The notes under the pieces are model-generated. The model was not told the origin of the DNA, searched no databases, and was given only the letters and a program-made list of their open reading frames with translations. Both the position numbers and the translations under genes were made by a program. Below are positions 7,467 through 17,608 of a DNA stretch of 64,000 bases, in pieces (position 1 is the stretch's first letter; the number at the start of each line of letters is the position of its first letter). Source of the DNA: Bacteroidetes bacterium ADurb.Bin145 (GTDB lineage Bacteria > Bacteroidota > Bacteroidia > Bacteroidales > VadinHA17); assembly GCA_002070505.1 (NCBI GenBank), contig MWDJ01000007.1:62001-126000 (forward strand), in the 5' to 3' direction.

Positions 7467-7519
7467 CTTATTCGATTATTTTTGAGAAATTTTTATTGCC
7501 AATTTTTCAGCATTTTATT

Positions 7520-10189
7520 ATGAGACAGTTTCAAGTTTTGATCAGATCACTGATATTATGTATTGTTTTTTTTCATCTATCCTTGAAATCGTGGGCTGTT
7601 TATGATCCGGATAAAATAGTCACGGATCAGGATAACGCTCCTCAGATGAATGCAAACAATCAACCTGTTTATACTACATCCCGGCTGGTAACTGCAAAAC
7701 CCGTTATTGACGGGAAGCTCGATGATGAATGCTGGAATCATGGAACATGGGCAGGAGATTTTCATCAGTGGATACCAAATGAAGGAGCACCACCCACATA
7801 TCCCACCAAAATAAATATTCAGTACGATGATAAGAATATATATGTAGCCATCCGTGCTTACGATGATGAACCTGAAAAAATAACCAGGATGTCTACAAGC
7901 CGTGATGATTATGATGGTGATGTGGTTGGTATTTCCTTTGATAGTTACAGGGATTACAGGACAGGTTTTGAATTCCACATTTCAGCATGGGGCCAGAAGA
8001 CAGACAATGTTCTTTTCAATCCCATGAGCTGGGATTCAAACTGGAATGCCGTATGGAACGGCAAGGTAGGCATGGAAGATTCAGCATGGGTAGCTGAAAT
8101 GGAGATCCCTTTAAGCCAGTTGAGATACAGCAGGGAAATAGAACAGGTGTGGGGCATGCATGTCTGGAGATGGATCTCAAGGCTGTCGGAAGAGAGTGAC
8201 TGGGAAATACAAACAAAATCAGGTCCCGGGATGTTATTTAATTTTGGAGAGTTAAGGGGCATCAGCGGCTTGAAACCATCACGAAGAATTGAACTGGTGC
8301 CTTTTATCCTGGGAGATCTCAATACATTCAAGAAAGAACCTGAAAATCCTTTCAACTCGAAGGGCAGAGAATGGGGCGGTAATCTTGGGCTGGATGCAAA
8401 AATCGGAGTATCAAGTAATTTCACTATCGATCTGACTGTAAATCCTGATTTTGGCCAGGTTGAATCCGATCCATCTGTGATGAATCTTTCTGCGTTTGAA
8501 ACTTATTATGATGAGAAGAGGCCATTCTTTCTTGAAGGGCTGACTATTTTCGATTATGATTTCGATGATAAGAATCTGTTCTATTCACGCAGGATCGGAC
8601 ATTCTCCTTCACAATCAATCAGCCCTGGTGCTGACTATTACGTTGATGCACCGGACATGACTACCATTCTGGGCGCTGCAAAGTTCAGCGGCACAACGTC
8701 AAAAGGACTATCAGTGGGATTGATCCAGAGTATTACTGCAAATGAATTCACAAGAATAAGTGACCCCGAAAGGAACATCGAGAAAGTCAAAGTAGAACCT
8801 CTTACAAATTATACTGTCGCAAGGATTAAGAAAGGTTATAAAGCCGGGAATACTGTTGTCGGAGGTATGCTTACATCAACTAACAGGTTTATAGATTCTG
8901 ATAATCTCGACTTCCTTGTGAGGGATGCCTTCACTGGCGGCCTGGATCTGAGGCATCACTGGAAAGACAAGGAATTTTATGTTGATGCCAGGCTTCTGGG
9001 CAGTTACCTTGAAGGAAGCGATATAGCAATAAACAACCTTCAGCGATCTTCAGCACGTTATTATCAGCGTCCCGGAGCTGACTATCTGGATTATGATCCA
9101 AACAGGACCAGTCTTGGAGGGTATGGCGGAAAAATAAAGGTCGGCAAAGGTTCAAAAGGACTCTGGAAGTATGCAACTGACTTAGCCTGGGTCTCGCCAG
9201 GACTTGAATTAAATGATCTTGGTTATCTGAACCAGGCAGATGAGATCCGCCAGGAAAACGAACTGGAGTACTTTATAAATAAGCCTGTGTCAATTTTCAA
9301 TACTTTCTCGATCGAACTGGAACAATTCAACTCATGGAATTTTAACGGGAATTTCCAGGGGTCAGGAGGGCATCTTTCATTTTCTTCTCAATTCAGAAAT
9401 AATTATTCTTTCTATGTAAATTTTATTATTGAATCTGGCGGTCTTGATACCAGGAAACTGCGCGGGGGTCCTGATATGCTGATGCCCGGTTCATTCACTA
9501 CATTCGGAAATGTCAGAACGGATCAGTCTAAGAAGATAATTCTTGGCTTCTCTTACAGTTATGAGGCATTTGGTAACAATTCTGCCAGGAGTTTTGGATT
9601 TCGACCTTCGTTAACAATTCGTCCGTTTAGCATGCTGAAACTGAGTGCAAATGCTGATTATGAGGTAAATAAGGACAAGCTGCAGTATGTTACAGCCGTT
9701 GATTACCAAAGTGGACGGTATTTACTTGGTACTATTGATCAAAAGACAATCGGATTGACATTCAGAGCAGATCTTAACATATCGCCTGAATTCGCTATTC
9801 AGTATTATGGAAGCCCGTTCATTTCACGAGGGAAATATTCAGAGATAAAGCGCATCACTTCGCCAAAAGACAAGGATTTCAATCAAAGATTCAGTTTATT
9901 GAATAAAGTTACGGGCAATGAAAATATTATTAGCCTGGATGAGAATAATGATTATCTGATTGATTATTCAATAATGAATCCCGATTTTAATTTCCATGAA
10001 TTCCGTTCCAACCTGGTAGCCAAGTGGGAATATAATCCTGGCTCTTTTATATATCTTGTCTGGTCAAGTGACCGTTCAGGCTATAATAAGCTGTCAGATG
10101 CTTCATTCGGAGAGTCTGTTGGATATCTTGGTGATGCACTGCCAAATAACATCTTCATGATCAAGTTGAACTACTGGTTCTCGCTTTAG
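7520..10189 (+). CDS. DUF5916 family protein: CBM9-like domain plus outer-membrane beta-barrel
   Basis: From the ATG at 7520 the product is about 889 residues; a TTG-initiated form from 7496 is possible but would place extra residues before the signal peptide (residues 1-27, ending near LKSWAV). A family-9 carbohydrate-binding-like domain follows (PVIDGKLDDECWNHG, NIQYDDKNIYVAIRAYDDEPE). The rest is rich in alternating aromatic/polar strands typical of a large barrel and ends in the hydrophobic strand MIKLNYWFSL. The function of DUF5916 proteins is unknown; envelope carbohydrate binding or transport is an inference. A diverged paralog is at 56058-58322. Confidence 0.82.
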   Translation: MRQFQVLIRSLILCIVFFHLSLKSWAVYDPDKIVTDQDNAPQMNANNQPVYTTSRLVTAKPVIDGKLDDECWNHGTWAGDFHQWIPNEGAPPTYPTKINIQYDDKNIYVAIRAYDDEPEKITRMSTSRDDYDGDVVGISFDSYRDYRTGFEFHISAWGQKTDNVLFNPMSWDSNWNAVWNGKVGMEDSAWVAEMEIPLSQLRYSREIEQVWGMHVWRWISRLSEESDWEIQTKSGPGMLFNFGELRGISGLKPSRRIELVPFILGDLNTFKKEPENPFNSKGREWGGNLGLDAKIGVSSNFTIDLTVNPDFGQVESDPSVMNLSAFETYYDEKRPFFLEGLTIFDYDFDDKNLFYSRRIGHSPSQSISPGADYYVDAPDMTTILGAAKFSGTTSKGLSVGLIQSITANEFTRISDPERNIEKVKVEPLTNYTVARIKKGYKAGNTVVGGMLTSTNRFIDSDNLDFLVRDAFTGGLDLRHHWKDKEFYVDARLLGSYLEGSDIAINNLQRSSARYYQRPGADYLDYDPNRTSLGGYGGKIKVGKGSKGLWKYATDLAWVSPGLELNDLGYLNQADEIRQENELEYFINKPVSIFNTFSIELEQFNSWNFNGNFQGSGGHLSFSSQFRNNYSFYVNFIIESGGLDTRKLRGGPDMLMPGSFTTFGNVRTDQSKKIILGFSYSYEAFGNNSARSFGFRPSLTIRPFSMLKLSANADYEVNKDKLQYVTAVDYQSGRYLLGTIDQKTIGLTFRADLNISPEFAIQYYGSPFISRGKYSEIKRITSPKDKDFNQRFSLLNKVTGNENIISLDENNDYLIDYSIMNPDFNFHEFRSNLVAKWEYNPGSFIYLVWSSDRSGYNKLSDASFGESVGYLGDALPNNIFMIKLNYWFSL

Positions 10190-10360: not shown

Positions 10361-10720
10361 ATGAGTATACTTATCTGTGAAGATAATACCCTGGCAAAAA
10401 AGACCCTTTCGGTAGTAATTGAGAAAGCGGGATTTTCAACCGAGGCATCTGAAGACGGAATTGAAGCTATGCGGATGCTTCAGGAGAATGACTATGAACT
10501 TATTATTGTAGATATTCACTTACCATATCATAGTGGTCTTGAACTTGTGAAATATCTGAGATCAGATCTGAAGAAGAAAACTCCGGTGCTCATTGTAACA
10601 GCCTTCAGTGATATCCAGCTACAGCAACAGGCAGGCGAACTGGGTATTAACGGTTATATCGTCAAACCATTTAACCCTGCTGATCTTATCAGTCAGATAA
10701 GATCAATCCTTAATAAATAA
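10361..10720 (+). CDS. Single-domain response regulator (REC only)
   Basis: The 119-residue protein is a complete receiver domain without an output domain: acidic pair E7-D8, phospho-acceptor D51 in IIVDIHLP, T80 in VTAFSD and K102 in IVKPFNP. It ends right after the last receiver helix, so it must act by protein contact, as CheY or Spo0F do. No histidine kinase is encoded nearby. The stop is separated from the YaiO-like gene's ATG by one base, so the two are certainly co-transcribed, and phosphorylation is likely to gate the downstream polysaccharide machinery. Confidence 0.92.
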   Translation: MSILICEDNTLAKKTLSVVIEKAGFSTEASEDGIEAMRMLQENDYELIIVDIHLPYHSGLELVKYLRSDLKKKTPVLIVTAFSDIQLQQQAGELGINGYIVKPFNPADLISQIRSILNK

Positions 10721-10721
10721 A

Positions 10722-11801
10722 ATGAAAAGTAATCAAGCTATATCACTTCTTTCCGGATTGGTAATTTTTCTGATTATTTGTTCAGATCCTTTGCTATCAC
10801 AGCAGATAAATAACCCGGAAGCCGAGTATTCAAGAATACGTACCCTGGCTTTTGAGGGGAACTATTCAGAAGCCGCCGCGGCAGCAAGAAGACTGGTTAA
10901 TGCTTTCCCGTCATATGGTGATGCAAGGATTCTGCTGGGAAGGATTCTAGCCTGGCAGAAGGATTATGAACAAGCGGCAGCGGTAATTGATACTCTCCTG
11001 ATCCGCGAACCGGATAATGAGGATGCGCTGGCTGCCAGAAGAGATATATCGCTTTGGTCCAAGGAAAACACGCCTGTTGCAACTGATATAAGAGCAGGAT
11101 ATTCTTTTGATACATTTAAGGAACCTTACTCACGCTTCTGGCAGATCTTCAAGGCCGGAGCGGGTCACCAGTTTAACTGGGGACCTGCTGCGGCCGGGAT
11201 CAATATCGGGAACCTGATAGCAAAAAGCCCGGATATAAATGCTACTGAAATGCAGTTTGAAGCTGAAGCATGGCCAACATTGTCGAATAAAAACTATGCT
11301 TACCTGGCTTATGCTTTCAGCCCTGGTAAGTATTTTCCAAATCACCGTGCTGCAGTCGAACTGTGGCAGATACTTCCGAAAGGATGGGCCGTTTCTGCAG
11401 GTCTTAATTATTATTATTTCGACAGGAATATATTTATAGGTGGATTATCAGTAGAAAAATATGTAAGGAATTACTGGTTTTCCCTGAAAGGATTTGTTTA
11501 TTTCAAGGACGACGGGCCCACAACTTCTTTCTTCCTTAACGGCAGGAGATATTTTAATTCTATTGATTACCTGCAAATAACACTCGGGACCGGTACTGCC
11601 CCGGATGAACCTTTTGATGTCCAGACTGATGTGGAACGATTAAGTGCGAACAGTATAAGACTTTCATACTATGGGGCTGTGACAAAAAGAGTGAGGATCA
11701 GGATCGGTGCAGGATATTCCAGGGAGGAATATGATGAAGATATATTACGGAACAGATTTGAAGGCAATATCAACCTGATCTATGCCATTAAAATGAAATA
11801 A
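10722..11801 (+). CDS. YaiO-like outer-membrane beta-barrel with N-terminal TPR-like region
   Basis: The 359-residue protein has a signal peptide (about 1-26, LLSQQ), a tetratricopeptide-like helical section (residues 30-110, AFEGNYSEAAAAARRLVNAFPSYGDARILLGR style) and a C-terminal barrel of about 230 residues starting at IRAGYSFDTFKEPYSRFWQ and ending GNINLIYAIKMK. This matches the YaiO family of outer-membrane proteins, which in E. coli is encoded beside a GT2 enzyme (YaiP). It is a good candidate for the polysaccharide exit pore. Its TAA shares one base with the ATG of the next gene. Confidence 0.82.
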   Translation: MKSNQAISLLSGLVIFLIICSDPLLSQQINNPEAEYSRIRTLAFEGNYSEAAAAARRLVNAFPSYGDARILLGRILAWQKDYEQAAAVIDTLLIREPDNEDALAARRDISLWSKENTPVATDIRAGYSFDTFKEPYSRFWQIFKAGAGHQFNWGPAAAGINIGNLIAKSPDINATEMQFEAEAWPTLSNKNYAYLAYAFSPGKYFPNHRAAVELWQILPKGWAVSAGLNYYYFDRNIFIGGLSVEKYVRNYWFSLKGFVYFKDDGPTTSFFLNGRRYFNSIDYLQITLGTGTAPDEPFDVQTDVERLSANSIRLSYYGAVTKRVRIRIGAGYSREEYDEDILRNRFEGNINLIYAIKMK

Positions 11802-13429
11802 TGAAAAATCCTTTAACTGGCATATTATCAATTGTTTTCCTTTTACTGTCGCAGGAATTTAGTCCCGCCCAGCAGATAGCTGATTCCGGCCTTTCTGATA
11901 AACAGTCAGAAATCCCCGTTCCACCGGGAGATTCATCTCTTGATTACATTGTTTCAGAAACCTCAATAAGAGGTTTTGTAACTTCATCAGTAAATGAATT
12001 TCCGATCCAGCTGGGAGCTTTCCGTTTAAGGATTAATGCTGAAGCGTTTTTAGCAGAAGTAAAGAAACATGTGGATGAAAATGCCATCATAGTAGATGAA
12101 GACGGTTATTATAAGGTAAGGATATCAAGAAATCCCAAAATAAAATCCATTGAAGAGAACGATCAGGCAAATGAAATTACTTCACCGGATATTCAACCGG
12201 AAATTCCGGCCACTGAACCCGATACATTGCAGCAAACATCTGCTATTACTGATTCGGTAAAAATTGCTGAGGTACTTTCAGTTGATAACAGTCTGAATAA
12301 ACAGGAACAGAATCCTGCTCCTGATATCATATTTTTCGATGAAAATAATCCCTGGCTGAAGAGAATTAACTACTTCGGCAAATCGATAGCCTTCGTCAAT
12401 TCATTGATTGTAACAATAGTTGTATCGATAACAACTATGCTTATATTACTGATGATCATACTTCTGAACAGACGCAGAATGGAAAAGGAAGAAAGGCTGC
12501 ACCAGTATCTGCTTGAAAAATATCAGGGACTTATTGTAGATTATCTGTTCGGTAATGCTAATCCTGACGATTTCCGTCCGATCGCTTCAGATAATTACCG
12601 CCGGCAGGTGCTGATTGATCAGATGATCGATGTCAGCGTTAACCTTAAAGGCGAAGAAGCGAAAAAGCTGTTCAGCCTTTATAAACATCTTGGACTCGAC
12701 AGGGATTCAATCAAGCGGGCAAATGATGTACGCTGGCACAAAAAGATAAAAGGATTCAGGGAACTTGCCTTCATGAATATAAAAGATGCCAATGATGTAA
12801 TGTACAGAGCCCTCAATTCATCAAATGAGATCCTGAGGATGGAGGCGCAGATCGCCCTTGTAAGGCTGGGCGACAAGAATCCTTTTGAGTTCCTTTCAAA
12901 GCTTACAAGACCATTTTCTCTTTGGGAACAGATAACACTTCACGAACTTATAATTCAGCATAATATCCCTGTCCCGCCTTTTAAACAATGGCTTAAATCT
13001 CCTAATCCGACAGTCGCTATGTTCGCTCTCAGGATGATAAGGGAATTCAGGCAGAAAGATGCTGAGGATGAAGTGAGGGAGACAATGCTTCGCCCGGAGC
13101 CTGAGATCAGGCAGCTTGCAGTACAGGTGGCAGGCGACCTCGAAATGAGGTCAACACTTGAGACAATGAAAAAGATGTATAAAAACCAGGATTATAATAT
13201 CTGTCTGGAGATTATAAAATCAATGGGGAAAATGCCGGATCTCTCAATGATGGGATTCCTGAAGCTTGTTCTTGATAAGGAAGATGATGTACAGCTGCAG
13301 ATTGAAGCAACCAAGGCTATCGAAAACAACGGGGAAGAAGGAGTTAAAGCCCTTGTCAAGCTTATGAAATCGGAATACAAGAATTACAATATTATTGTGA
13401 GACACGTTCTGGATCGCAGAATATTTTGA
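11801..13429 (+). CDS. SPOR-like / transmembrane / HEAT-repeat protein
   Basis: The 542-residue protein has an uncommon three-part layout. A signal peptide (1-24) is followed by a SPOR-like segment at 68-110 (PIQLGAFRLRINAEAFLAE, then YYKVRISR), a linker rich in Pro/Glu/Asn (111-190), one membrane helix at about 198-222 followed by NRRRMEKEER (positive-inside), and a cytoplasmic C-terminal half of HEAT-type helical repeats (ILRMEAQIALVRLG; PEIRQLAVQVAGDLE; VQLQIEATKAIENNG). It would connect periplasm to cytoplasm and may scaffold the GT2 synthase, whose gene starts 4 bases after its stop. The SPOR assignment is by eye. Confidence 0.72.
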   Translation: MKNPLTGILSIVFLLLSQEFSPAQQIADSGLSDKQSEIPVPPGDSSLDYIVSETSIRGFVTSSVNEFPIQLGAFRLRINAEAFLAEVKKHVDENAIIVDEDGYYKVRISRNPKIKSIEENDQANEITSPDIQPEIPATEPDTLQQTSAITDSVKIAEVLSVDNSLNKQEQNPAPDIIFFDENNPWLKRINYFGKSIAFVNSLIVTIVVSITTMLILLMIILLNRRRMEKEERLHQYLLEKYQGLIVDYLFGNANPDDFRPIASDNYRRQVLIDQMIDVSVNLKGEEAKKLFSLYKHLGLDRDSIKRANDVRWHKKIKGFRELAFMNIKDANDVMYRALNSSNEILRMEAQIALVRLGDKNPFEFLSKLTRPFSLWEQITLHELIIQHNIPVPPFKQWLKSPNPTVAMFALRMIREFRQKDAEDEVRETMLRPEPEIRQLAVQVAGDLEMRSTLETMKKMYKNQDYNICLEIIKSMGKMPDLSMMGFLKLVLDKEDDVQLQIEATKAIENNGEEGVKALVKLMKSEYKNYNIIVRHVLDRRIF

Positions 13430-13433
13430 TAAT

Positions 13434-14906
13434 ATGGAATTAATATTCGGACATATTGTCTTCATACTTACCCTGATACTATTCGGTTCGTATCTGTTAC
13501 TCGGGATATTCTCAGCTCTTGCTCTACGTAAATATCTTCGCAAGAACAGCTATGTCAATTACAATTCTCTTGTTTTATCGCCCCTGAGTCCCAGAATATC
13601 AATAATAGCTCCTGCTTTTAATGAAAGTAAAACAATAATAGACAACATACGTACTCTTCTTTCCCTGTATTACAATAATTTTGAAGTCATCCTTGTGAAT
13701 GATGGATCAACGGATGACACTTTCGAAAAGATCAAGGATGCGTATGATCTCGTAAGGGTGAATTATTATTTCGACTACCGGATCCCCTGTGAAAGGATCA
13801 AAGGTGTATATAAATCAAAAGATCCTTCATATACAAGGTTGACTGTTATCGATAAAAATAACGGAGGGAAAGCTGATTCGCTTAACGCAGGTGTGAATAT
13901 CTGCAAGAGTTCGCTTTTCGTTTCAATCGACGCTGATTCAATTATTGAGGCCGATTCAATCCTAAAACTTGTCAAACCATTTCTTGAAGAAAAAGAACGC
14001 AAAGTAATTGGTACGGGAGGAGTTATAAGGATAGTCAATTCTTGTGATGTTGAAAGTGGACATATAAGAGAGATACACGTACCAAAGAGCATCCTTCCCC
14101 GTTTTCAGGTACTTGAATATACAAGAGCATTCCTACTCGGAAGGATGGCATGGAGTCATCTTGACGGGTTAATGCTGATCTCCGGTGCCATGGGTATATT
14201 TGATCGTGAAACAGTTATCAAGGCCGGAGGGTACAGTACAAAGACAGTGGGAGAGGATATGGAACTTGTTCTCAGAATGAGGCGGTACATGTCGGAGCAT
14301 AATAGAAAGTACGAAGTAACCTACATACCTGATCCGCTCTGCTGGACAGAAGTCCCGTCCGACATCAGGTCGATGAGAAGGCAAAGGACAAGATGGACCC
14401 GAGGTCTCGTGGAATCCCTTTGGACACACCGTAAAATATTCTTTAATCCGGAATTCAAAAGACTTGGGATGCTGGGTTATCCTTACTGGTTCTTCTTTGA
14501 ATGGCTCTCACCGCTTATAGCTTTTGCCGGGTTCTTATTCACAATCTATCTTATCATTACTAATGCCCTGAACTGGCCTTTCTACCTGCTGCTGTTTATT
14601 TTTGTCTATACTTTTGCAGTTGCTTTGTCGACATGGTCAATACTGTTTGAAGAGATCACTTTTCACAAGTACAAGAAGAAGAGAGATGTCCTGAAACTCC
14701 TGGCAACCGCAATGCTTGAACCTTTCTTTTATCCGGTACATACCTATTTTGCCATAAGAGGTAATTTTGAAGCAATGAGGCGGAAAAAAGGATGGGGGAA
14801 AGCCGACAGATCAGGCTTCGACAAGAAGAAGAAGGCAGAGCGCAAACCTACATTACGTCAATCAGCAAACATCGGGAGAACCGAGAGACCTGATCTGACA
14901 ATCTGA
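13434..14906 (+). CDS. Processive GT2 glycosyltransferase (polysaccharide synthase-like)
   Basis: The 490-residue membrane enzyme has an N-terminal helix, a GT-A domain with VNDGSTDD, SIDADSII (the DxD metal site), the acceptor/base motif VGEDMELVLRMRR and the processive signature RRQRTRWTRG (QxxRW), then three or four C-terminal helices (residues about 345-440). This is the BcsA/PgaC/hyaluronan-synthase type that polymerises beta-linked sugars at the inner membrane while extruding the chain. The C-terminal tail is Lys/Arg-rich. It overlaps the convergent glycosidase gene by 49 bases. The polymer made cannot be told from sequence. Confidence 0.92.
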   Translation: MELIFGHIVFILTLILFGSYLLLGIFSALALRKYLRKNSYVNYNSLVLSPLSPRISIIAPAFNESKTIIDNIRTLLSLYYNNFEVILVNDGSTDDTFEKIKDAYDLVRVNYYFDYRIPCERIKGVYKSKDPSYTRLTVIDKNNGGKADSLNAGVNICKSSLFVSIDADSIIEADSILKLVKPFLEEKERKVIGTGGVIRIVNSCDVESGHIREIHVPKSILPRFQVLEYTRAFLLGRMAWSHLDGLMLISGAMGIFDRETVIKAGGYSTKTVGEDMELVLRMRRYMSEHNRKYEVTYIPDPLCWTEVPSDIRSMRRQRTRWTRGLVESLWTHRKIFFNPEFKRLGMLGYPYWFFFEWLSPLIAFAGFLFTIYLIITNALNWPFYLLLFIFVYTFAVALSTWSILFEEITFHKYKKKRDVLKLLATAMLEPFFYPVHTYFAIRGNFEAMRRKKGWGKADRSGFDKKKKAERKPTLRQSANIGRTERPDLTI

Positions 14907-17608
14907 AATGATTTCTTTTCCACCGGTACAGTTGACGGGACAATAAGCCAGTCGTCCCAGGTATATCGTGTGGTTGATGACACTACTGAATTCCGGTAAT
15001 ATACAGAAACAGCAATCCCGTCTGTTCTCGCGGTAGAGATCTGATATGACCGGCCACCATCGTATGAGACGGCTCCATTAACCACCTGCAGCTGACTCGG
15101 GTCATAGAAATAAAGCATAGTCCAGGGAATACGGATCTTTATCTTGTTACCAGACCAGGTTACAGCCGACCTCTGCCCGGGTGTAAAATCGGCTGAGTTT
15201 TCCATCGGAAGTAATCCGCATGAGTCCAAAGTATATTCAAATCCATCATTGTACAACATCATAATTTTCCATGGATCGCCATCGGTATCTGTTGTTTTAT
15301 ACTTCTGAACCAGCGGATCTGAAAGGTTGAACCTGGGAGTCAGGCCGTTCATATCATAGGCCTGGGTGACGTGATGAACAGCAGTGTCCTGCCCGAATAC
15401 AATTGAAAGCATAAATTCCGACTTGTTGCTCAGTGTTTTTCCATTCGGGAGTTTTGATTCTCCTGTATTCCCCAGGTATGTATCAAAGGCAATCATCATC
15501 GTATCTCCCGGATTTATATTCTGACGGGTTTCTATGTGAAGCATCAGAGAACTGTTATCGTGTGTAGCTTCTATTTTGTTCAATGGCCCGGAAGGATTAT
15601 CTGTCAGGAATCCTGTAAAGGGATCTGTAGCAGTCTGACGAAAACCGATAAGGCCGAAATTCTGTTCCGGTGACGCAAGATTATGCCATAACTGCCTTGT
15701 CGGGATCATAACACTGCCTGACATAAAACCATAAGCTTCGAGGTAAGCCACGAGCCAGGTTGGCTTGAACCATTCATCCATCCAGGAGAACATAAAGCCG
15801 CCTGCACATCCTGCAGTAAATATGTTGTGCATCATCCTCATGTTTTTCTCTCCCTGCTGTTCTTCGGAATAACCGCCGTGGTCCATATTACTGTACGATT
15901 GATGTGCGCTTGTCCAGCTTGAGGGTACACCAAACTCGCCTATTACAAGTGGTATACCAGAATAATGGTCTTTCAGGTCGGTCAGATATCCCAGGTAACT
16001 GTTTCTTCCTTCTTCATCCTCATAAGCCTGATAGGAAGGTTGCTGGCTGATGAAATTCGGATAATACGGATAAGCGTGATAACATGCAAAGATCCCTGCC
16101 TGTTGATCTTTACCTTCGATCCTGTAAATATCAAAAGAAGCATTATCTTCATCAGTATAGATCTCGGTAGGATGATTCAAAGGATCAAGGGTGGGCCAGC
16201 TGGAAATACTGACCGGGCGCCTTGATTCATAATTCTTAGCTTCGTAAGACACAACCTCATCAAGCATTTTTGTCACAAAGACTTCAGAAGCACTTGCCCC
16301 GGAGATACTGAACTGATATCCGGAATAAGATGTCATCTCAGGGTGAAATAAGTCAGTGGAATCGACCTCCTGGGGCATTATTTCCCTGCCGATTATATAC
16401 CCGGCGGTCCATCTCGAAACATCAGTAAGATATCTTCCGTAGGCTCTTCCGGCCCTGAATGCAATATCTTTGTTCCCGTGAATGCAATCGATTACTTCTC
16501 TTATTCCATCTTTGAATGGAGCTGTACGAAGGGTCAGGTCATAATCATCCGGATTCTGCCCATCTTCAATCTCGTCGAGCCAGATACCCTGGAAAAGCAA
16601 TAATGGTTTATCCGGGTTACGTTGATTATACTCGGCCAGTTTCTCATAAAAGACAGGTGGATGAAGGGTATACACCCTAATAGAATTGAATCCGGCATCA
16701 GTCATCTGTCTTATCCATTTTTCATAGGTACCGGCAGATTTATCCTCGATGGCATAAGCAATCTCACCGGGGAAATATCCGGGAGGAGATGATCCGAGAT
16801 TTATACCTTTAAGAAGTAGCGGCCTGTATGCTGTTCCGGTGAACATAGCTATATGATCTCCGGATATTTTGAATGGGAGTTCCTGGCTGCGTGCCAGTTC
16901 AAAATCTATTACAGTATCGCAGGCAAGAGTTATGTCAGTAAGTCTGACAGGATAATACTTATCGCATTCAACTGTGGTTATAACAGAGATCCTCCGGGGA
17001 CCGGGTGGATCTGAAACTTCGGGTGGCAACATAATGGGCTCCAGACCAGTTCCTGCTGAATAGGTGGACCGGCCCTCAACTTTAACAAGTTTACCTGATG
17101 AAGTCTTGCCCCTGAAAGTTAGTGAATAAATATAATACCCCTGTCGGACCGGGGCTCCGTTATCAGTTCGGCCGTCCCATATTAACTGATAGCTTCCGGC
17201 AGGAGTTTCCGGGAAAAGCTTTTCTGTTATTTTCTGTCCTGTAAAACTATATACGGAAAACCTTATATCTCCTATACTGCTGATTATGAAAGGGATATTA
17301 ATTGAATATGTAAACGGATTCGGATAGGGACTGCCTAATTCGATAAGTCCGGGAACGTCCTCATAAATACCGAATACCTTCAGAGAATAAGTTCCGTCGG
17401 ATCCCGATATTCCGGCATAATGTGTATTTCCGGAGATAAATGAAACTTTTGCATTCTGGATAGCGTTGCCAAAGGGATCTGTAATTCTCCCGCTTACACG
17501 AAAGTCTGCAGCGGAAAGTGGCCTGCTTAAAGAAATAAACATTATCAGTAGGGTAAAGATCCTGATAGTCAGATCGATGCATTTTGCCGATGATGTCTTT
17601 TCCTTCAT
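14858..17608 (-). CDS. Secreted TIM-barrel glycosidase with CarboxypepD_reg-like and FlgD-like modules
   Basis: The 916-residue protein has a signal peptide (1-33), a carboxypeptidase-regulatory-like domain (about 36-80, VSGRITDPFGNAIQNAKVSF), a FlgD-like Ig module (92-170, GSPYPNPFTYSINI to WDGRTDNGAPVRQGYYIYSL), then a glycosidase barrel beginning LLLKGINLG near 265. Likely catalytic features are GFNSIRVYTLHPP and VIGEFGVPSSW (nucleophile Glu). A beta-sandwich follows at the C-terminus. It resembles glucan-active barrel enzymes (GH2/5/17/72 clan), but the exact family is not certain. Facing the GT2 gene, it may trim or release the polymer made by the neighbouring cluster. Confidence 0.75.
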   Translation of the reverse strand: MKEKTSSAKCIDLTIRIFTLLIMFISLSRPLSAADFRVSGRITDPFGNAIQNAKVSFISGNTHYAGISGSDGTYSLKVFGIYEDVPGLIELGSPYPNPFTYSINIPFIISSIGDIRFSVYSFTGQKITEKLFPETPAGSYQLIWDGRTDNGAPVRQGYYIYSLTFRGKTSSGKLVKVEGRSTYSAGTGLEPIMLPPEVSDPPGPRRISVITTVECDKYYPVRLTDITLACDTVIDFELARSQELPFKISGDHIAMFTGTAYRPLLLKGINLGSSPPGYFPGEIAYAIEDKSAGTYEKWIRQMTDAGFNSIRVYTLHPPVFYEKLAEYNQRNPDKPLLLFQGIWLDEIEDGQNPDDYDLTLRTAPFKDGIREVIDCIHGNKDIAFRAGRAYGRYLTDVSRWTAGYIIGREIMPQEVDSTDLFHPEMTSYSGYQFSISGASASEVFVTKMLDEVVSYEAKNYESRRPVSISSWPTLDPLNHPTEIYTDEDNASFDIYRIEGKDQQAGIFACYHAYPYYPNFISQQPSYQAYEDEEGRNSYLGYLTDLKDHYSGIPLVIGEFGVPSSWTSAHQSYSNMDHGGYSEEQQGEKNMRMMHNIFTAGCAGGFMFSWMDEWFKPTWLVAYLEAYGFMSGSVMIPTRQLWHNLASPEQNFGLIGFRQTATDPFTGFLTDNPSGPLNKIEATHDNSSLMLHIETRQNINPGDTMMIAFDTYLGNTGESKLPNGKTLSNKSEFMLSIVFGQDTAVHHVTQAYDMNGLTPRFNLSDPLVQKYKTTDTDGDPWKIMMLYNDGFEYTLDSCGLLPMENSADFTPGQRSAVTWSGNKIKIRIPWTMLYFYDPSQLQVVNGAVSYDGGRSYQISTARTDGIAVSVYYRNSVVSSTTRYTWDDWLIVPSTVPVEKKSFQIVRSGLSVLPMFAD

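Follow-up and report, generated by a model that had tools for sequence, protein, structure and literature searches.

A GT2 glycosyltransferase and a membrane-anchored HEAT-repeat protein as the conserved core of a candidate polysaccharide synthase operon

Overview of the operon

The window, which here means the whole analysed stretch of 64,000 nucleotides, comes from Bacteroidetes bacterium ADurb.Bin145 (contig MWDJ01000007.1, positions 62,001 to 126,000) and carries four consecutive genes for a response regulator made of a receiver domain alone (REC), a YaiO-family outer-membrane protein, a membrane-anchored HEAT-repeat protein, and a processive-type family 2 glycosyltransferase (GT2) (Table 1). 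By synteny counts, this four-gene arrangement is more than chance. An earlier note on this DNA had taken the four genes as one unit; the invariant core is the HEAT-GT2 pair, and REC and YaiO are frequent but dispensable partners. On balance, we lean slightly toward reading the operon as a synthase-dependent polysaccharide machine independent of cyclic di-GMP (c-di-GMP), in which the HEAT protein would be a co-subunit and REC, served by a phosphorelay, the switch.

The packing of the genes and their family assignments, including the tetratricopeptide repeat (TPR) start of the YaiO-like barrel, were as described in the earlier note, the former by checked coordinates of the open reading frames (ORFs) and the latter by a Pfam scan. 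The gaps between the four ORFs are 1, -1, and 4 bases, and the -1 is the A common to stop and start codons in TAATG.

Table 1. Features of the operon, its convergent neighbor, and the fused genes of relatives (positions in the window unless a locus is named; aa, amino acids; TM, transmembrane; AF2, AlphaFold2)
Feature	Position	Strand	Basis
REC-only response regulator, 119 aa, phospho-acceptor D51, without output domain	10361..10720	+	PF00072
YaiO-family outer-membrane protein: hydrophobic N-terminus, TPR helices aa 32-112, barrel aa 121-356	10722..11801	+	PF19413, AF2
SPOR-like/TM/HEAT-repeat protein, 542 aa: SPOR-like aa 69-108, TM about 192-225, HEAT solenoid 255-537	11801..13429	+	Pfam, AF2, hydropathy
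Processive-type GT2, 490 aa, D90, D166/D168, E274-D275, QRTRW321	13434..14906	+	Pfam, motif alignment
Convergent protein, 916 aa, probable accessory	14858..17608	-	T9SS-like/FlgD-Ig segment and glycosidase-looking region
GT2 fused to LtaS/OpgB-like transferase domain	L042:7752-11183, L034:8203-11865, L059:2480-6259		Pfam

Conservation of the HEAT-GT2 pair in Bacteroidota

A search with the HEAT protein gave 54 matches in 47 of 296 genomes of the phylum. The GT2 gene lies directly downstream in all 41 non-window matches that were fetched first; four weak matches fetched later (L188-L191, with E values of 1.6e-5 or worse) lack a neighboring GT2, and two of the 54, one in genome G190 and one on contig C3 of the source genome, are outside the fetched set. 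The profile of the GT2 subfamily found 78 places in 70 of the 296 genomes at 1e-80, for which 36 places beyond the loci of the HEAT search were fetched, so that L032-L071 from that search and L152-L187 together make up all 77 non-window places. Among the 76 intact loci, the HEAT gene was placed directly upstream of GT2 by script with an iterated HEAT profile in 75, and in the 76th (L181) it was seen by eye, where it overlaps an over-long GT2 ORF. The count for L152-L187 was 29 of 35 with the first script and 34 of 35 with the iterated profile and a wider overlap rule. The locus left out of the 76 for its broken GT2, L185 (G201:C12), has the subfamily GT2 split in fragments, transposase-like ORFs just upstream, and no HEAT gene. 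REC was found within 4.5 kb upstream in 56 of the 76 loci and YaiO nearby in 59.

A second set, named here the named set (L072-L151), comprises the best 80 of at least 576 confirmed relatives and leans to close kin; it has the HEAT gene in 76 loci, REC in 69, and YaiO in 69, and three of the four HEAT misses are contig ends. Flavobacterium johnsoniae is among the carriers (L135). Profile A1 was built from 22 of the 41 GT2s, and the models from 53 of the 76 HEAT and 51 of the 62 YaiO rows listed for this set.

As a control, 30 GT2 loci from six genomes were taken out of 138 matches, and five of them proved to be the module itself; a HEAT gene lies beside these five and beside none of the 25 other GT2 loci. 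In a tree of 157 GT2 sequences, HEAT stays beside GT2 while the placement of YaiO shifts: the YaiO arrangement takes 42 parsimony steps over arrangement classes, against at least 79 in 100 shuffles, the classes being set by fixed distance rules and some of the 42 steps coming from truncated loci. That the neighbors came together by chance and form no functional unit is thus extremely improbable; apart from the small size of the cluster, nothing speaks for it, and the conserved linkage, synteny counts, and controls contradict it.

Two further arrangements were observed among these loci. L044:6237-16943 holds two HEAT-GT2 pairs side by side, each followed by YaiO-type genes, and a family of approximately 390 amino acids occurs near the module in 28 loci (e.g., L063:10655-11824), whose scanned members had no Pfam or NCBIfam match above cut-off.

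Distribution of the module outside the phylum

The earlier note had said that a lack of shared synteny would refute it; the synteny check came out in its favor, the families being found together across the phylum and also outside Bacteroidota. A tblastn search of plasmids with the window GT2 returned 127 records, of which 15 were read (H1-H7, H10-H17). In all 12 better-matching records, the HEAT gene is directly upstream of GT2, and their hosts are Emticicia, Bacteroides finegoldii, Halosolutus, Salinirubellus, Haloarcula, Paenibacillus, Mesorhizobium, Erythrobacter, Deinococcus radiophilus, Planococcus, Devosia, and Legionella adelaidensis, spanning Bacteroidota, Alpha- and Gammaproteobacteria, Deinococcota, Bacillota, and Halobacteria. 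The three records ranked after these (27-29% identity) hold GT2s of other kinds, none of them with a HEAT gene. Mesorhizobium has REC-YaiO-HEAT-GT2 in the exact order of the window, and in the three haloarchaea, a response regulator precedes HEAT-GT2. YaiO is annotated or profile-strong in L227, L228, L232, and L238; for the TPR proteins in L233 and L236, the assignment to YaiO comes from an in-house profile only, and a Pfam scan of L233 gave no barrel. The stretches of the three haloarchaea and two Bacillota yielded no YaiO, and the two Bacillota stretches showed no response regulator either. This absence agrees with a YaiO that serves the outer membrane and a core formed by HEAT-GT2.

Domain architecture of the four proteins

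The GT2 protein scored 73.7 bits with Glycos_transf_2 and 73.1 bits with Glyco_tranf_2_3 in Pfam, and its residues D90, D166, D168, E274-D275, and Q317-R318-x-R320-W321 are invariant across 23 aligned GT2s. Hydrophobic segments (1-32, 353-371, and 373-391) flank the GT domain on both sides, and a membrane GT2 with D, DxD, ED, and QxxRW motifs is what a synthase-dependent system has. The best named model is PgaC (TIGR03937), with 135 bits, well under its cut-off of 422.3. In Halosolutus, a sugar-phosphate nucleotidyltransferase and glmS adjoin GT2, and the Legionella adelaidensis locus contains a nucleotide-sugar dehydrogenase and epimerases; taken with the PgaC model, these genes suggest that the sugar donors may differ between hosts.

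The HEAT protein was matched by HEAT_2 (57.3 bits) and, just short of the gathering score of 21, by SPOR PF05036 (20.8 bits). Its AlphaFold2 model, with a mean predicted local distance difference test (pLDDT) of 82, has a beta-alpha-beta unit at 69-108, which is likely a SPOR domain, followed by a long helix (196-249) and the helical repeat domain (255-537). The hydropathy scan gave a single hydrophobic segment, 192-225, and a signal-like N-terminus seen by eye falls under its threshold. Together with this N-terminus, a charged RRR stretch after the TM segment suggests that the HEAT part is cytoplasmic. The most conserved positions of the HEAT protein fall in the stretch G284-L410. A fold search with the HEAT part returned mainly designed repeat proteins and no informative relative.

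The YaiO protein passes both cut-offs of its family (PF19413, 112.1 bits against 23.9; TIGR04390, 92.3 against 32), and the Pfam scan shows TPR plus the YaiO barrel, a kind of outer-membrane protein also characteristic of synthase-dependent clusters. Its AlphaFold2 model (mean pLDDT 91) has TPR helices at 32-112 and then a barrel in which approximately 14 strands were counted; among the 50 structure matches listed, OmpG was nearest in size and had the highest target-normalised template modelling score, 0.62.

The REC protein matched the receiver family PF00072 with 93 bits (cut-off 30.2) and no other family above cut-off. In a 120-row alignment, the acid-pocket positions E7 and D8 are conserved, as are the phosphorylation residues D51 (116 of 120 rows), T/S80 (117 of 120), and K102 (118 of 120), which together make it a single-domain response regulator by its lone receiver, intact acid pocket, phospho-Asp, T/S, and Lys. 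Since these residues are kept, no output domain is present, and kinases adjoin the gene in some relatives, REC probably signals by contact. Its partner is probably the HEAT solenoid, whose gene follows that of REC either directly or after one intervening gene: where REC-only, YaiO, and HEAT genes are all present, REC lies directly before HEAT or YaiO-HEAT in 42 of 45 loci and in 57 of 60 of the named set, and REC distances correlate with the distances of HEAT and of GT2 (r 0.69 and 0.73, 100 loci), a correlation for which species kinship would account in part.

Associated kinases, transferases, and c-di-GMP domains

Of the 76 loci, 18 contain a kinase with a receiver, and in 16 the kinase gene immediately precedes the REC-only gene; in the named set, such a kinase is present in 29 of the 80 loci, with this position in 21. 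The count of 18 is of proteins with a kinase core, four REC-GGDEF-REC proteins being kept apart. Three linked kinases scanned by Pfam are HisKA-HATPase-REC-Hpt proteins, and Hpt genes stand beside GT2 in plasmid loci L232 (Mesorhizobium) and L236.

A gene of the LtaS/OpgB-like kind, recognized with a profile built from nine sequences (five confirmed PF00884), is present in 28 of the 76 loci (fused to GT2 in nine) and in 26 of the 80 (fused in seven). On the GT2 tree, there are 16 fused GT2-transferase sequences with eight parsimony changes. Among named families, the linked PF00884 proteins come closest to LtaS and phosphoglycerol transferase I, with scores far below the cut-offs, and the nearest solved sequences are VP1736 and LTA synthases. 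A formylglycine sulfatase was rejected, as C.P.R occurs in 0 of 53 rows and the GRT threonine is conserved; the looser pattern [CS].P(S)R is present somewhere in six of the 53. The window operon has no such gene, and two PF00884 genes lie elsewhere in the source genome.

The PilZ receptor of c-di-GMP and diguanylate cyclases are typical of Gram-negative synthase-dependent systems, though not defining. Among 50 of the 70 GT2-positive genomes, GGDEF was found in nine and PilZ in none, and the source genome has neither. The usual c-di-GMP gate is therefore not at hand in most carriers. As these domains are typical and not defining, their scarcity lowers only the claim of a Pga, Bcs, or Alg system.

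Proposed mechanism and alternative explanations

In the proposed model, GT2 would polymerise a sugar nucleotide at the cytoplasmic face and extrude the chain through the inner membrane, with the TM-HEAT protein as its obligate co-subunit, the HEAT solenoid being held against the catalytic domain and, in the clade of the window, the SPOR-like domain reaching peptidoglycan. YaiO, with its TPR and barrel, would carry the chain across the outer membrane in diderm hosts, and in some relatives, the LtaS/OpgB-like transferase, at times fused to GT2, would decorate it. A hybrid kinase/Hpt phosphorelay may phosphorylate the stand-alone REC, which would then bind the HEAT protein (or GT2) and switch synthesis post-translationally. 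The model itself supplies the polymer, the topology, the path of export, the contact between REC and HEAT, and the direction in which REC switches synthesis, and it does so around gene order, domains, motifs, conservation, the LtaS-like genes and kinases linked in relatives, and the scarcity of GGDEF and PilZ, all of which were observed directly. The earlier note had proposed a phospho-gated machine for synthesis and export, and the architecture agrees with one, given a processive-type GT2, a TPR/barrel protein, a membrane-anchored HEAT protein, and a REC with intact phosphorylation residues; the polymer, the gating by REC, and the protein contacts are inferred. What that note had observed is thus confirmed, and its interpretation is partly supported, for the architecture, with the function a prediction.

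Several observations weigh against this model. REC is lacking within 4.5 kb upstream in 20 of the 76 loci and from the plasmid stretches of Legionella, Deinococcus, Bacillota, and Bacteroides, so that it cannot be a universal requirement, and YaiO was not found in 17 of the 76; the stretches reach only approximately 5-7 kb on each side, and some absences may reflect their ends. L108, the fourth HEAT miss of the named set, has 1.7 kb upstream of GT2 and no HEAT gene. The ORFs and Pfam scan showed no kinase gene beside the window's own REC. PgaA, BcsC, and AlgE have barrels of 16-18 strands, and the modelled YaiO barrel, with about 14, is narrower. Nine of the 50 carriers do have GGDEF genes, and the scarcity of GGDEF and PilZ, counted in carriers alone, may characterize the group rather than the module. 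In genus g44 (L159, L161, L163, and L166), the operon receiver is a REC-GGDEF-REC protein; an active diguanylate cyclase was rejected there, the GGDEF motif being degenerate in all four.

Two other explanations have to be weighed. GT2-HEAT could make a periplasmic or membrane-anchored glycan similar to osmoregulated glucans or lipoteichoic acid, decorated with phosphoglycerol by the LtaS/OpgB-like protein, with YaiO acting separately and nothing secreted. The kinship of the linked PF00884 proteins to LtaS, phosphoglycerol transferase I (both far under cut-offs), VP1736, and LTA synthases would agree with this, as would a core lacking YaiO in the stretches read from archaea and Bacillota. It is nevertheless unlikely, because 59 of 76 and 69 of 80 loci have a linked YaiO, the position of YaiO moves many times over the GT2 tree (42 parsimony changes, in part noise from truncated loci), and the best named GT2 model is PgaC, an enzyme of an exported polymer. 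A slightly less improbable explanation, though still a doubtful one, sets REC apart from the synthase: REC would be an intermediate of a phosphorelay or would relay the signal to a transcription factor, and its co-transcription would ensure that signalling and synthesis proteins are produced together. Where a kinase is present, it mostly sits immediately before REC (16 of 18 and 21 of 29 loci), a phosphorelay layout that could lead on to a different regulator and favors such a role, and so does the absence of REC from about a quarter of loci; it is opposed by the position of REC directly before HEAT or YaiO-HEAT in 42 of 45 and 57 of 60 loci, and before HEAT-GT2 in two archaea, and by REC distances that follow those of HEAT and GT2, with kinship giving part of the correlation.

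If the synthase-dependent machine switched by REC is the right reading, it matters for the 41 of 50 carriers without GGDEF and the 50 of 50 without PilZ, in which the c-di-GMP gate of model Gram-negatives is mostly not at hand, and the module gives a concrete and testable account of how polymer synthesis may be switched in such bacteria. It also suggests a role for the YaiO family, and the shared REC-HEAT-GT2 core links bacterial and archaeal systems.

Flanking genes

The convergent gene downstream overlaps the GT2 gene by 49 bases at its 3' end. Members of its family occur at 15 of the fetched loci, of which 14 belong to the named set, and share conserved GRE and (A/G)EFG motifs, which suggest an unrecognised glycosidase. 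Pfam and NCBIfam scans matched no catalytic family, and the search for solved relatives gave only FlgD at E 0.5 or worse. Just upstream of the cluster on the same strand (7496-10189), a DUF5916 protein with a CBM9 domain is encoded; a search of the 40 loci L032-L071 gave no relative.

Comparison with known systems

The Pga system resembles the operon in having a GT2 of the same kind (PgaC) and a TPR-plus-barrel outer-membrane protein (PgaA), and PgaC was the best match to the window GT2 among six E. coli proteins compared (26.4% over 326 amino acids, 103 bits). It differs in that the PgaC cut-off was failed and that the operon has HEAT and REC instead of PgaB and PgaD, with no PgaB-type deacetylase or PgaD seen when the four genes and both flanking genes were scanned. 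Pga is under c-di-GMP control, whereas the source genome has no GGDEF or PilZ match.

The E. coli yaiO-yaiP pair had been put forward in the earlier note as a precedent, and a YaiO barrel is indeed near a GT2 there. The parallel is not a close one: an acyltransferase gene disrupted by an insertion sequence lies between yaiP and yaiO, the YaiS deacetylase is next, no HEAT or REC gene is annotated in the stretch, and YaiP belongs to another GT2 branch, aligning partially with the window GT2 (27.6% identity over 225 residues). With 52.8 bits against 103 for PgaC, YaiP was rejected as the close counterpart.

Bcs is described as a GT2 synthase with cytoplasmic adaptors and a modifying phosphoethanolamine transferase, BcsG, under PilZ and c-di-GMP control (PMC11470070), and it is alike in combining a synthase with adaptors and a modifying transferase. 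The differences are that BcsA scored 25 bits with the window GT2 profile, BcsG did not match the profile of the linked transferase, and the word HEAT is nowhere in the main text of that paper. In Myxococcus, a phosphorylated single-domain regulator, EpsW, is reported to activate the exopolysaccharide enzyme EpsZ post-translationally (PMC12802240), which is the kind of switch proposed for REC. EpsZ, however, is a phosphoglycosyl transferase of the Wzx/Wzy pathway, and its abstract and discussion mention no HEAT adaptor (PMC12802240); the EpsW type has a large monotopic phosphoglycosyl transferase as partner, and the operon enzyme is a GT2. OpgB and LtaS are the families closest to the PF00884 proteins that relatives carry linked to GT2 or fused with it, from which they differ by scores far below the named cut-offs and by the lack of such a gene in the window operon.

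By title and abstract, no description of a REC-HEAT-GT2 module was found in the open-licence literature, although a subscription paper could exist; PMC12419801, PMC11470070, and PMC10434189, in the parts consulted, do not describe it and have HEAT repeats in other contexts or not at all. There is a real chance of a distinct synthase class, and we give about even weight to the view that the module is an undescribed class of GT2 synthase of bacteria and haloarchaea, with an obligate membrane-anchored HEAT protein, a REC phospho-signal in many hosts, no PilZ/c-di-GMP gate, and YaiO as an add-on exporter of diderms. Judged by its genes, the module would work like a synthase-dependent exopolysaccharide system, but it is neither a member of Pga, whose cut-off it fails, nor close to Bcs or yaiO-yaiP.

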